64,000 nt of DNA from Planctomycetaceae bacterium (GTDB lineage Bacteria > Planctomycetota > Planctomycetia > Pirellulales > Pirellulaceae), in NCBI GenBank assembly GCA_002709225.1, contig PAQH01000025.1, positions 1 to 64,000 of the forward strand. Direction: 5' to 3'. Shown piece after piece: positions 2,740 to 63,660 of the stretch. A program made the position numbers and the translations under genes. Under the pieces are notes generated by a model. The model had not been told where the DNA came from. It ran no database searches and was given only the letters and a program-made list of their open reading frames with translations. How positions within the stretch are numbered: the first letter of the stretch is position 1; each line of letters starts with the position of its first letter.

Positions 2740-5700
2740 ATGACTTCCGCGCAGCATTCGAGCCGATCCGTTTTGGTTGCGGTGTGGTACTCCGTAGTGG
2801 TGTTGTGTGGTCTATCAGGAGCCGCAATTACGGCCGCGGAGGTGGATTACCTCACGCAGATCAAACCACTTCTGCAAAAACACTGCTACGCATGCCATGG
2901 GGCGTTGCGACAACGCGGTGGTTTGCGTCTGGACACTGTGCTGCTTGCCAAACGTGGTGGAGAAAGTGGTCCGGCGGTCGTGAGCGGAAATCTGGCGGAG
3001 AGCCTCGCCTACCAGGCGGTCACAGGCCAGGCTGGGTTTGAAATGCCACCCGAGAGTGAAGGAATTCCGCTCACTGAGGTGGAAAGGGCGCTGTTGCGGC
3101 GCTGGATTGAGGAGGGGGCTCGCGGTGTCGCCGACGAGACGCCAGCGGAGGACCCCCGAACATTTTGGTCCTACCTGGTTCCACAGCGCCCGGCGCTGCC
3201 CGCGGCCGAGTCGGGGTCGCTCGATAACCCGGTTGACCGCTTTCTGCAGGCGCAACGCGTACGACATGGATTGACTCCCCGACCGGCAGCGTCGCCGGCG
3301 GTTTTGTTGCGGCGTTTGTACCTGGATTTGATTGGCCTGCCGCCGACACGGAGCGAACTCCGAAGTTTCTTAGCGGATCCTAGCGAAAAGGCCTACCACC
3401 AGATCGTCGATGCGCTGCTAGCTCGCCCCGAATACGGCGAACGGTGGGGACGGCATTGGATGGATGTGTGGCGGTATAGCGACTGGTATGGAAGCACTAA
3501 CGAGATTCGCTATGGGCGGCGCGGTATCTGGCGTTGGCGCGATTGGATCGTGGAGTCATTGAACGACGACAAGCCTTACGACCGCATGGTCATGGAAATG
3601 CTCGCCGGCGATGAACTGGCGCCAGGGGATCGCGGTGTGGTGCGCGCCACAGGATATCTGGGAAGAAGCTGGTACAAGTTTGATCGAAATGTCTGGATGT
3701 TTGATACGGTGGAACATGCCGGCCAGGCATTCCTGGGGCTGACGCTGCGTTGTTGTCGCTGTCATGATCACAAATACGACCCGATCGCACAGGTTGATTA
3801 CTATCGGTTTCGTGCATTCTTTGAACCCCATGATTTGTTGACGGAGCAGGTACCTGGCGCACCGGAAAGGGTCAAGGACACCAAGTACGGCCAAGTATTG
3901 AAAAATGGGTTGCCGCGGGCCTACGACAAGAACCCGAGTGTGCCGACTTTCAGGTTCCTCCGCGGCGATGGACGCTATCCAGATAAGGAATCTCCGCTGG
4001 AGCCCGGTGTTCCACCTGCATTGGGTGGTGGCGTTGTGGAAGTACGTGACATTGCCTTGCCACTGGCGGCCTTTTATCCGGCACTGCGTGACGACGCGGT
4101 GCGCGAAACGCTGGCGGTGACGAAAGGTAAGGTAGCGGTCGCGTCTAGGGCGGAGTTGGCGGCCGAACGAAAACGCGATCTGGCGGTCGCGGCGGTCGCC
4201 AACGCGGTCTCTGACGGGTTAGCCGAGGATCGTTCGCAACAAGAGCCATTTATGCGAGAGTTGTTTGGCGGCGACGCCTCCGCACGTTGGCACATCAAGT
4301 CGGGCCAATGGAGATTTGGACAGGGCACGTTGACACAATCCCGGGTCACGCGTTTCGCCACCGCGGTCTCGCGGGAGACGCATCCCCGTGATTTCTTCGC
4401 CCGTGTCCGCTATGTGACGCTGAAACCGGGCGGATTACGTTCTGTTGGCTTTAGTTACGACTACCGAGACAAGGGGGGCAGTTCGCACGACATTTACACC
4501 AGTACCAATGACAATTCCACGTCGATTCAAGCTTTCCATCGCAAGCACGGGCGTCAGTTCTATCCACCCGCTGGTGTGGTCAGAACCCCCATCGCGCTGG
4601 GAGCGGAAACGACGGTGGAGATTGAGGTTCGCGAGCGGGCCTTGACCATCTGGTTGAACGGTGAGAAGAAGCTGGAGTACCAGCTTCCCGAGCCACGGGC
4701 CGAGGGTCGGTTCGCACTGTGGGTCCATGAAGGGGCGGCGGAGTTTCGCGAAGTGACCATTCGGTCGCTGCGAGCGACGGTGGCCGATTTGCGCAGGGTG
4801 GCGGCCGATGCCGCTCACGCGGTGGCCGTGGCACGCCTCCAGCTGAAGGTCGCGCAGCAGGAGCATGCGGCGGTACAGATGCGGGTCGCTGCCGAGCGTA
4901 TCAAGTATGGCACGGCACCGAACGCGGACGAACTGACGGAAAGTGCGGAGGCTGCCGAGAGGGGGGAAGTCGCGGTGTTGCTCGCCCACGCTGAATTGAA
5001 GTTGCTGCAGGCGCGTCGCAAAGCCGCGTTGTTGGCGGCAACGCGGCGGCCGACGAAGGCGAGCGAACAGCGGGATGCGGAACAGAAGATTCGCGCGGCG
5101 GAAAAGGAAAAGGCCGCGGCGCAGACGCGGTCAGAACGTGTGACGGGGAAGTACACACCCTTGGGTACGGTCTATCCACGCCGCAGCACCGGGCGGCGGT
5201 TGGCACTGGCCCGCTGGATTGGCAACCGGCAGAACCCGCGCACAGCGCGGGTCGCAGTGAACCACTTGTGGTTGCGTCATTTCGGTGCCGCTCTCGTTCC
5301 GTCTGTGGCGAACCTGGGTTTGAACGGGATCCCTCCCACCCATCCGCGGTTGCTTGACTGGTTGGCGGTTGAGTTTATGGAAGGTGGGTGGCGGATGAAG
5401 CGGATGCATCGGTTACTGGTGCGCTCACGGAGTTACCGTATGGCCAGTTCGGCGGGGAAGATGGCGGGGGCTAATCTGCAGGGCGATCCGGACAACCGGT
5501 TCTTGTGGCGGATGAATTCACGGCGCGCCGAGGCGGAGACGGTGCGCGATAGCCTGCTGGCGGTGTGCGGTTCACTGGATACGACCATGGGGGGACCGGC
5601 GATTGCGGAAACATTGGGTGAAGAGATCTATCGTCGAAGCCTCTATTTTCGGCTTACACCTAACGAAAAGATGAAGATGCTTGAAGTGTTCGACGTCGCG

Positions 5701-6030
5701 GACCCGAATGCCTGTTACCGGCGGCAGGTAAGCGTGATCCCTCAGCAGGCGCTGGCACTATCCAACAGCGGTTTGGCGCTGGAGCAGTCGCAGCGTTTGG
5801 CGGATCGCCTTCGCGCACGGCACCCAGATCCGGTGGGATTGGTCCAGGCGGGCTTTGAAACCGTGTTGAGCCGGCCGGTCGGCACGGCCGAGTTGGACAG
5901 CTGTATCGAGTTTCTGTCGACACAGACCGAGACGCTGCGGGAGTCGGGAGTCGTGGAGGCGGAACGCCGCGCCGCGGGGAACTTGATTCATGTATTGCTC
6001 AATCATAATGACTTTGTGACGATCCGCTGA
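2740..6030 (+). CDS. PSCyt1-DUF1549-DUF1553 protein with an internal jelly-roll/DUF1080-like insert and coiled coil
   Basis: N-terminal CYACHG heme motif (IKPLLQKHCYACHGALRQRGGLRLD); second CXXCH in LRCCRCHDHKYDP; DUF1553-like C-terminus (NPRTARVAVNHLWLRHFGAALV, PHPRLLDWLAVEF-type, NSRRAEAETVRDSLLAV). Confidence 0.92.
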   Translation: MTSAQHSSRSVLVAVWYSVVVLCGLSGAAITAAEVDYLTQIKPLLQKHCYACHGALRQRGGLRLDTVLLAKRGGESGPAVVSGNLAESLAYQAVTGQAGFEMPPESEGIPLTEVERALLRRWIEEGARGVADETPAEDPRTFWSYLVPQRPALPAAESGSLDNPVDRFLQAQRVRHGLTPRPAASPAVLLRRLYLDLIGLPPTRSELRSFLADPSEKAYHQIVDALLARPEYGERWGRHWMDVWRYSDWYGSTNEIRYGRRGIWRWRDWIVESLNDDKPYDRMVMEMLAGDELAPGDRGVVRATGYLGRSWYKFDRNVWMFDTVEHAGQAFLGLTLRCCRCHDHKYDPIAQVDYYRFRAFFEPHDLLTEQVPGAPERVKDTKYGQVLKNGLPRAYDKNPSVPTFRFLRGDGRYPDKESPLEPGVPPALGGGVVEVRDIALPLAAFYPALRDDAVRETLAVTKGKVAVASRAELAAERKRDLAVAAVANAVSDGLAEDRSQQEPFMRELFGGDASARWHIKSGQWRFGQGTLTQSRVTRFATAVSRETHPRDFFARVRYVTLKPGGLRSVGFSYDYRDKGGSSHDIYTSTNDNSTSIQAFHRKHGRQFYPPAGVVRTPIALGAETTVEIEVRERALTIWLNGEKKLEYQLPEPRAEGRFALWVHEGAAEFREVTIRSLRATVADLRRVAADAAHAVAVARLQLKVAQQEHAAVQMRVAAERIKYGTAPNADELTESAEAAERGEVAVLLAHAELKLLQARRKAALLAATRRPTKASEQRDAEQKIRAAEKEKAAAQTRSERVTGKYTPLGTVYPRRSTGRRLALARWIGNRQNPRTARVAVNHLWLRHFGAALVPSVANLGLNGIPPTHPRLLDWLAVEFMEGGWRMKRMHRLLVRSRSYRMASSAGKMAGANLQGDPDNRFLWRMNSRRAEAETVRDSLLAVCGSLDTTMGGPAIAETLGEEIYRRSLYFRLTPNEKMKMLEVFDVADPNACYRRQVSVIPQQALALSNSGLALEQSQRLADRLRARHPDPVGLVQAGFETVLSRPVGTAELDSCIEFLSTQTETLRESGVVEAERRAAGNLIHVLLNHNDFVTIR

Positions 6031-63400: not shown

Positions 63401-63660
63401 GACGCTTGTCCCGGTCGCAGGGCGGGTCCCGAGTCACCGCCTTGCAAGGCGGTGACTCGCTGGTCAAGGCGTAATCCGGACTCCTGCTTGTCGGGTCCAT
63501 GGCAGGAATAGCAACGCCTCCGCAGAATCGGTTCGACGGCACCCGTGAAAGTGACTTGGGACGCGGGCGTGTCGGCGGCAACCGTGTGCGGCCGGTCGGG
63601 CGGAGTGAAACCACATAGGCAGGCTGTGGCGACAGTAGCACAAAAAAGGCGATGCGTCAT
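60487..63660 (-). CDS. PSCyt1-DUF1549-LamG-DUF1553 protein
   Basis: [50 protein letters not shown]; LamG-like [19 protein letters not shown]...[43 protein letters not shown]. Confidence 0.93.
   Translation of the reverse strand: [1057 protein letters not shown]
63430..63459. repeat. Perfect 30-bp palindrome CGAGTCACCGCCTTGCAAGGCGGTGACTCG inside the PSCyt1 coding region
   Basis: Checked base by base: all 15 outward pairs around 63444/63445 match. Confidence 0.97.

Follow-up and report, generated by a model that had tools for sequence, protein, structure and literature searches.

Matched cytochrome-like and DUF1501/DUF1552 gene pairs in a planctomycete genome and their probable relation to a haem-free DUF1800-DUF1501 pair

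The window analysed here comprises positions 1 to 64,000 of the forward strand of contig PAQH01000025.1 from the assembly GCA_002709225.1 of a Planctomycetaceae bacterium. An earlier note on this DNA had described seven two-gene pairs, and all seven were recovered with Pfam at or very near their proposed positions (Table 1). Five pairs consist of a PSCyt1-PSCyt2-PSD1 gene followed by a DUF1501 gene, and two of a PSD3/PSD5/PSD4/PSCyt3/PSD2 gene followed by a HXXSHH (DUF1552) gene. The PSCyt2 and PSD1 models both exceeded their gathering cut-offs in all five window proteins and in 49 of 49 sampled paralogues, as did the PSD4 and PSCyt3 models in both DUF1592-type proteins. The five paired DUF1501 proteins scored between 430 and 492 bits (PF07394), and the two HXXSHH partners 277 and 257 bits, above the cut-off (PF07586). 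A motif scan detected two CXXCH motifs in every first gene and an RR leader near the N-terminus of every partner. Given the spacings in Table 1, a 4 bp overlap, previously attributed to several pairs, applies to exactly two of the seven (pairs 3 and 7) and not to the rest; the overlaps of 23 and 31 bp in pairs 6 and 5 hold if the first start codon is taken. The length of the first protein of pair 4 is counted from the first possible start at 31881, where the earlier note had 31935. Two additional DUF1501 genes of the window, both also above the cut-off, had been overlooked.

Table 1. Paired genes and additional DUF1501 genes in the window (Pfam domains and scanned motifs; insert types in parentheses).
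Feature	Coordinates	Strand	Domains	Length (aa)	CXXCH positions or leader	Spacing within pair	Remarks
Pair 1, first gene	2740..6030	+	PSCyt1-PSCyt2-(3-keto-disaccharide hydrolase-like insert)-PSD1	1096	49, 338		
Pair 1, partner	6077..7561	+	DUF1501	494	RR leader	gap 46 bp	
Pair 2, first gene	20959..23856	-	PSCyt1 (weak)-PSD3-PSD5-PSD4-PSCyt3-PSD2	965	49, 839		
Pair 2, partner	19567..20883	-	HXXSHH/DUF1552	438	RR leader	gap 75 bp	
Pair 3, first gene	27892..30543	+	PSD3-PSD5-PSD4-PSCyt3-PSD2	883	229, 757		
Pair 3, partner	30540..31829	+	HXXSHH/DUF1552	429	RR leader	overlap 4 bp	
Pair 4, first gene	31881..34946	+	PSCyt1-PSCyt2-(Laminin_G_3 insert)-PSD1	1021	60, 360		
Pair 4, partner	34996..36405	+	DUF1501	469	RR leader	gap 49 bp	
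Pair 5, first gene	44358..46994	-	PSCyt1-PSCyt2-PSD1	878	53, 364		
Pair 5, partner	42922..44388	-	DUF1501	488	RR leader	overlap 31 bp	length and overlap from TTG start
Pair 6, first gene	54924..57788	-	PSCyt1-PSCyt2-PSD1	954	77, 374		
Pair 6, partner	53498..54946	-	DUF1501	482	RR leader	overlap 23 bp	
Pair 7, first gene	60487..63660	-	PSCyt1-PSCyt2-(Laminin_G_3 insert)-PSD1	1057	50, 341		
Pair 7, partner	58994..60490	-	DUF1501	498	RR leader	overlap 4 bp	
Additional DUF1501 gene	12972..14372	+	DUF1501				no adjoining cytochrome; Secretin_N/EF-hand protein before, PhoD and two sulfatases after
Additional DUF1501 gene	37512..38873	-	DUF1501				no adjoining cytochrome

The seven pairs are not independent events, being paralogues from an expansion to at least 133 PSD1 cytochrome genes in this genome, which also carries at least 23 PSD4 genes. 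The PSD1/DUF1501 families are among the most multiplied in Planctomycetes, and here the PSD1 cytochromes and DUF1501 genes (366,945 and 191,898 bp) make up about 9% of the 6.15 Mb genome. The high density noted earlier for the window was confirmed, with five PSD1 genes against 1.4 expected from the genome average (Poisson P of about 0.014). However, 18 of the 133 PSD1 genes lack a DUF1501 gene at a distance of up to 400 bp, and solitary DUF1501 genes also occur in the genome; both weigh against the earlier proposal of one functional unit.

Gene order was counted gene by gene; a domain-level count within 2 kb was discarded because it hides reversed pairs. Among the 114 adjacent, co-directional PSD1-DUF1501 pairs of the genome, the cytochrome comes first in 108 and the partner in 6, and the 21 PSD4-DUF1552 pairs divide into 19 and 2. 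Describing the order as invariant or strict was therefore an overstatement. Two of the six partner-first PSD1 pairs are located just right of the window on the same contig (C25:75003-79479 and C25:87047-90414). Scoring in other genomes, which the earlier note had proposed, gave few reversals: 65 cytochrome-first and no partner-first arrangements were counted for PSD1-DUF1501 (75 usable loci), and 23 versus 1 for PSD4-DUF1552. In DUF1800-DUF1501 pairs, DUF1800 came first in 40 of 40 and the partner in none.

Beyond adjacency, the paralogous partners are matched pairs. The trees of the two partners mirror each other across 86 main-type paralogous pairs (r = 0.81; maximum of 2000 shuffles 0.09), and DUF1501 splits by partner type: all 25 proteins paired with DUF1800 and all 30 paired with main-type PSD1 fall into clades with a support of 1.0. 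A possible reason could be inheritance alone, where one pair was block-duplicated more than a hundred times without any need for contact between its two proteins. The pairs of the window are all paralogues, and co-duplication of adjoining genes would by itself yield mirrored trees with no interaction needed. Nevertheless, this explanation is unlikely, given that the arrangement recurs in three pair types with separated partner clades and in other phyla, and that no third gene was found conserved beside the pair in the neighbourhood check, the flanking genes being mixed. It also conflicts with the rearranged pairs: in five of the six inverted pairs the partner still ranks high by match, at 6, 4 and 6 of 92 and at 3 and 2 of 18, which is about the upper fifth or better, whereas the sixth (C25:87047/89008) is a weak match at rank 19 of 92. 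The mirrored trees, the mostly matched inverted pairs and the lack of a conserved third gene lend real support to the earlier proposal that both proteins act as one functional unit.

For the first protein, haem attachment is predicted from motifs. The N-terminal haem motif was detected in 82 of 127 PSD1 paralogues and is missing in 45, and the inner CxxCHx[HA] motif was found in 123 of 127. LamG or F5/8 C type inserts occur in PSD1 cytochrome paralogues, and a Tat-type motif in 1 of 98 cytochromes. None of 30 DUF1800 cases shows a CXXCH motif, yet DUF1800 holds the same first position before DUF1501. Together with the paralogues that lack the N-terminal motif, this makes the original framing of the first gene as a CXXCH protein too narrow. 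The same observations bear on an electron-transfer pair, in which the partner would be an oxidoreductase passing electrons to the cytochrome in oxidative sugar breakdown. Such a role would suit the two CXXCH motifs in all seven first genes of the window, the one insert similar to 3-keto-disaccharide hydrolase, and the association of PSCyt genes with oxygenated lake layers and carbohydrate use drawn by He et al. 2017 (PMC5615132). However, with a CXXCH-free DUF1800 version, one third of the paralogues devoid of the N-terminal motif and a partner whose predicted fold is sulfatase-like and not that of an oxidoreductase, it appears improbable.

Each profile-profile score was set beside the highest of its controls, which were one reversal and 20 column shuffles. 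Gap-rich alignments gave meaninglessly high column-shuffle scores, and trimmed alignments were used instead. By this sequence comparison, homology between DUF1501 and DUF1552 extends along their length (score 86, control 24). Tat export of the partners is predicted from the RR leader, which is present in 92 of 98. The AlphaFold2 model of the pair 7 partner (pLDDT 87.0) suggests a sulfatase-like fold: its best PDB matches in Foldseek were sulfatases and LtaS (E 7.5e-7, probability 1.00), although with modest TM-scores of about 0.37 to the sulfatases. Across 47 DUF1501 sequences, H166, D361, H363 and H419 are invariant, and D418 and E404 are near-invariant. D361, H363, E404, D418 and H419 resemble metal ligands, and His166 appears to occupy the nucleophile position; both assignments are based on motif spacing and not on superposition.

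This fold raises the possibility of an ordinary module for sulfated glycans, with DUF1501 as a formylglycine sulfatase. A sulfatase profile does match the C-terminal half of DUF1501, and sulfatases are found near one DUF1501 gene of the window as well as directly downstream of a PSD1 gene in another genome (L255). Still, this is the least probable of the alternatives considered, and very improbable in itself. The C/S-x-P/A-x-R formylglycine motif of S1 sulfatases is absent, with His at the apparently equivalent Cys/Ser position in 47 of 47 DUF1501 sequences, and the DN calcium-ligand motif is replaced by EF. The genome has only 32 true sulfatase matches, far fewer than DUF1501 genes, and the genes flanking the pairs are mixed.

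The PSD1 cytochromes resemble DUF1800 (profile scores 65-71, controls at most 34), second-type PSD1 cytochromes resemble PSD4 (67, control 23), and a weaker similarity connects DUF1800 with PSD4 (48, control 28). When a DUF1800 HMM was run on the ORFs of the loci fetched from this and other genomes, six of six matches were PSD1 cytochromes. The Pfam model of DUF1800 (PF08811) stayed below its cut-off on the PSD1 proteins of the genome (best 19.2 vs 26.1 bits). Homology of the PSD1 half of the cytochromes to DUF1800 is supported at the profile level, whereas membership in PF08811 is not supported. The earlier note had seen two distinct families of cytochromes, each with a parallel partner. The parallel stands, as DUF1501 and DUF1552 are homologues, but since the cytochromes show profile homology to each other, they may not be distinct. 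For the pair 5 cytochrome model (AlphaFold2, pLDDT 87.3), Foldseek returned no solved structural relative, and a PDB sequence search with profiles of the cytochrome, of DUF1552 and of DUF1800 gave nothing convincing beyond a small haem domain. One ORF contains both DUF1800 and DUF1501 (L296:2251-4674), which is suggestive of a complex but may be a read-through. Long ORFs in L155 and L167, considered as DUF1800-DUF1501 fusions, were rejected as other-frame extensions.

The favoured explanation, held with somewhat more confidence than doubt, is that the module is an ancient exported two-protein unit of a helical carrier and an alkaline-phosphatase-fold enzyme, to which haem was probably added in particular lineages. 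It builds on computed results, namely adjacency, biased order, partner-matched evolution, the partner fold and the profile homology of both positions to the DUF1800-DUF1501 pair. All modules would descend from one old bicistron. Its first protein would be a mostly alpha-helical carrier with a PSD1 half homologous to DUF1800, which in these lineages bears one or two CXXCH motifs, presumably for c-type haem, often along with a carbohydrate-binding-like insert. Its partner, of Tat type by motif, would have an alkaline-phosphatase/sulfatase fold that keeps metal-ligand-like residues, with the invariant histidine at the place of the sulfatase nucleophile. This DUF1501/DUF1552 partner may be the catalytic subunit, a role predicted from motifs, while the helical protein would bind it and select the substrate. 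Haem would then be an added redox function and not the core of the unit, and the many paralogues could act on different glycan-like substrates.

A further-reaching version, for which the chances appear even, unites DUF1800, PSCyt2-PSD1 and PSD4-type proteins in one helical carrier superfamily of obligate partners of Tat-exported, alkaline-phosphatase-fold DUF1501/DUF1552 proteins. A circular shuffle of segments may relate its two cytochrome families to each other, and an originally haem-free, hydrolytic unit would have gained (or lost) haem before the expansion to more than 100 matched copies in one genome.

Matched partners, a hydrolase fold and a haem-free version elsewhere provide a starting point for these families. 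True and mismatched planctomycete pairs could be used as a direct binding test, and the simpler DUF1800-DUF1501 pair is open to study in cultured bacteria such as Caulobacter vibrioides, one of two control genomes with matches to both families.

PSCyt/PSD gene clusters and their pairing have already been published for Verrucomicrobia and Planctomycetes by He et al., whose main text gives no order count, partner matching, partner fold or DUF1800 link. Kamneva et al. 2012 are credited (in PMC4452313 and PMC4960237) with a conserved gene cluster that includes DUF1501, in PVC bacteria that have intracellular membranes. Compared to the sulfatase/alkaline phosphatase superfamily, DUF1501 shares the predicted fold, has several conserved residues that resemble ligands, and differs in the nucleophile and calcium-ligand motifs. 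The DUF1800-DUF1501 pair is known as two co-oriented genes in a predicted operon with a Tat-leader DUF1501 (PMC5122149). As in the PSD1 modules, DUF1501 comes immediately after the first gene, with both on one strand, but this pair was described beside bacterial chitin synthases, with no link to the planctomycete cytochromes. New here, relative to this published work, are the matching of the partners, the DUF1501-DUF1552 homology with the predicted DUF1501 fold, and the supported homology of PSD1 and DUF1800, by which the planctomycete kit with haem motifs is probably related to the haem-free kit of other bacteria.

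All seven two-gene modules that the earlier note had proposed for the 64-kb window were confirmed by Pfam: five combine a PSCyt1-PSCyt2-PSD1 cytochrome with a DUF1501 partner (PSD1 type), and two a PSD3/PSD5/PSD4/PSCyt3/PSD2 protein with an HXXSHH (DUF1552) partner (PSD4 type). As proposed, each first gene encodes a CXXCH protein (two motifs in 7/7) and each partner has a Tat-type RR leader (7/7). The two cytochrome families do have parallel partners, and DUF1552 is homologous to DUF1501 across 377-378 columns. A 4-bp overlap, which had been ascribed to several pairs, occurs in exactly two of the seven. 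The seven pairs are paralogues and not seven independent events. Besides the pairs, the window has two DUF1501 genes that are unpaired (Table). The one at 12972-14372 lies in a different DUF1501 setting, a run on one strand that also comprises a Secretin_N/EF-hand protein, a PhoD-like phosphatase and two sulfatases. The protein following the DUF1501 of pair 5 has a weak DUF805 region below the cut-off and a weak polyketide-cyclase-like region.

Table. Coordinates of the discussed features
Feature	Location	Remark
Pair 1, first gene	window 2740-6030(+)	PSD1 type
Pair 2, first gene	window 20959-23856(-)	PSD4 type
Pair 5, cytochrome	window 44358-46994(-)	PSD1 type
Pair 5, DUF1501	window 42922-44388(-)	
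Unpaired DUF1501 gene	window 12972-14372	no cytochrome adjoining
Unpaired DUF1501 gene	window 37512-38873	no cytochrome adjoining
Different DUF1501 setting	window 9459-18931	one strand
Protein after pair 5 DUF1501	window 41403-42857	
Inverted DUF1501-cytochrome pair (L049)	C25:75003-79479	right of window end
Inverted DUF1501-cytochrome pair (L050)	C25:87047-90414	right of window end
Sulfatase after PSD1 gene	L255:7779-9368	Verrucomicrobiaceae MAG
DUF1800 + DUF1501 ORF	L296:2251-4674	807 aa

The assembly (82.7% complete, 167 contigs) contains 136 PSD1, 23 PSD4, 22 DUF1552 and at least 127 DUF1501 matches (127 of 255 candidates scored); 41 PSD1 copies are reported for Rhodopirellula baltica (PMC2754498). 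The fetched loci hold 133 PSD1 genes and as many long DUF1501 ORFs, together about 559 kb or 9% of the assembly. With five PSD1 genes versus 1.4 expected (P about 0.014), the window stands out as dense even in a genome that is itself very dense.

Gene order was scored per gene, and a domain-level count was not used because it would have hidden inversions. In the genome itself, a DUF1501 gene lies directly downstream on the same strand for 108 PSD1 genes, four of which also have one upstream; it is upstream only in six, divergent in one and absent within 400 bp in 18. PSD4-DUF1552 pairs are cytochrome first in 19 cases versus partner first in two. The comparison set comprised 80 PSD1 loci from other genomes, mostly Planctomycetota, Verrucomicrobiota and Acidobacteriota, 75 of them with room downstream. 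Here, DUF1501 is downstream in 65 (60 within 400 bp, five at gaps of 400-900 bp), divergent in one and first only in none, and for PSD4 loci elsewhere in the phylum the count was 23 versus one. The order is therefore a strong rule with exceptions, not the invariant one previously claimed. Two of the six inverted PSD1 pairs lie on the window's own contig, just past its right end; upstream of the first, further DUF1501 genes follow on the same strand as far as C25:82528. Two second-type PSD1 genes (L115, L137, own genome) lack DUF1501 and instead have PSCyt1-WD40 proteins behind them, which may be a further type of partner. The usual place of DUF1501 is taken in a Verrucomicrobiaceae MAG by a true sulfatase, 9 bp downstream of a PSD1 gene.

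No third gene occurs within 200 bp for half of the pairs, and the flanking genes that do exist are mixed, with no family beside more than two of 50; the module therefore consists of two genes. The trees of main-type PSD1 proteins and their DUF1501 partners are correlated (r = 0.81, n = 86; highest of 2000 shuffles 0.09). Mirrored trees would also arise by co-duplication of adjacent genes. The rearranged block of the inverted pairs makes them a partial control. By profile match, their own partners come in at ranks 6, 4, 19 and 6 among 92 and at ranks 3 and 2 among 18; normal pairs have a median rank of 4 among 86. By this measure, five of the six inverted pairs match well and the sixth weakly.

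The structure model of the pair 5 PSD1 protein has a pLDDT of 87, and no solved structural relative of it was found. Of 127 PSD1 paralogues, 123 have the inner CxxCHx[HA] motif and 82 the N-terminal CXXCH; their inserts vary, with LamG and F5/8 C domains among them. In the first gene of pair 1, the segment inserted between PSCyt2 and PSD1 has a 3-keto-disaccharide hydrolase match (PF06439), and LamG matches occur in other inserts.

DUF1800 proteins, none of which has a CXXCH (30/30), precede DUF1501 in 29 of the 30 phylum loci, and another 11 pairs have this order too. The Pfam DUF1800 model matched a PSD1 protein of the genome below the cut-off, and all six matches of a DUF1800 HMM among ORFs of the fetched own- and other-genome loci were PSD1 cytochromes. 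Profile-profile scores between DUF1800 and PSD1 were 65-71 with alignments of second-type or all members and 51 with the main type alone (reversal and shuffle null maxima at most 34). The PSD4 type scored 67 against second-type PSD1 (null 23) and, more weakly, 48 against DUF1800 (null 28). Matched segments are not in the same order in the two cytochrome families, and local matches are weak, e.g. the PSD1 C-terminal end of pair 5 against PSD5 of pair 2; there are sequence hints that one family may be a circularly rearranged version of the other.

In the DUF1501 tree, the partners of DUF1800 (25/25) and of main-type PSD1 (30/30) fall into one clade each (support 1.0 for both); those of second-type PSD1 form no clean clade. 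One ORF (L296) joins DUF1800 and DUF1501 with an internal Tat motif; it may be a fusion or read-through and carries little weight. It has already been stated that PSCyt genes are paired with two unknown families (PMC5615132); a DUF1501 module is credited to Kamneva 2012, and the DUF1800-DUF1501 operon pair is described in PMC5122149. A link between DUF1800 and planctomycete cytochromes was not found in the open-access literature searched, which does not prove novelty.

The earlier note suggested that the two proteins act as one unit, and on the best reading the module would be an exported two-protein unit made up of a helical carrier protein and an enzyme of the alkaline-phosphatase fold. All modules would derive from a single bicistron, haem being a probable addition in PVC and related lineages; we infer partner binding, haem, Tat export, metal content and substrate. 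Among solved structures, the DUF1501 AlphaFold2 model (pLDDT 87) is best matched by sulfatases and lipoteichoic acid synthases (E 7.5e-7, probability 1.00, TM about 0.37). Across 47 sequences, H166, D361, H363 and H419 never vary, and D418 and E404 hardly do. DUF1501 thus resembles classical sulfatases in predicted fold but is not one itself, since a His, placed by its spacing to the TG motif, appears to occupy the nucleophile position and the DN motif reads EF.
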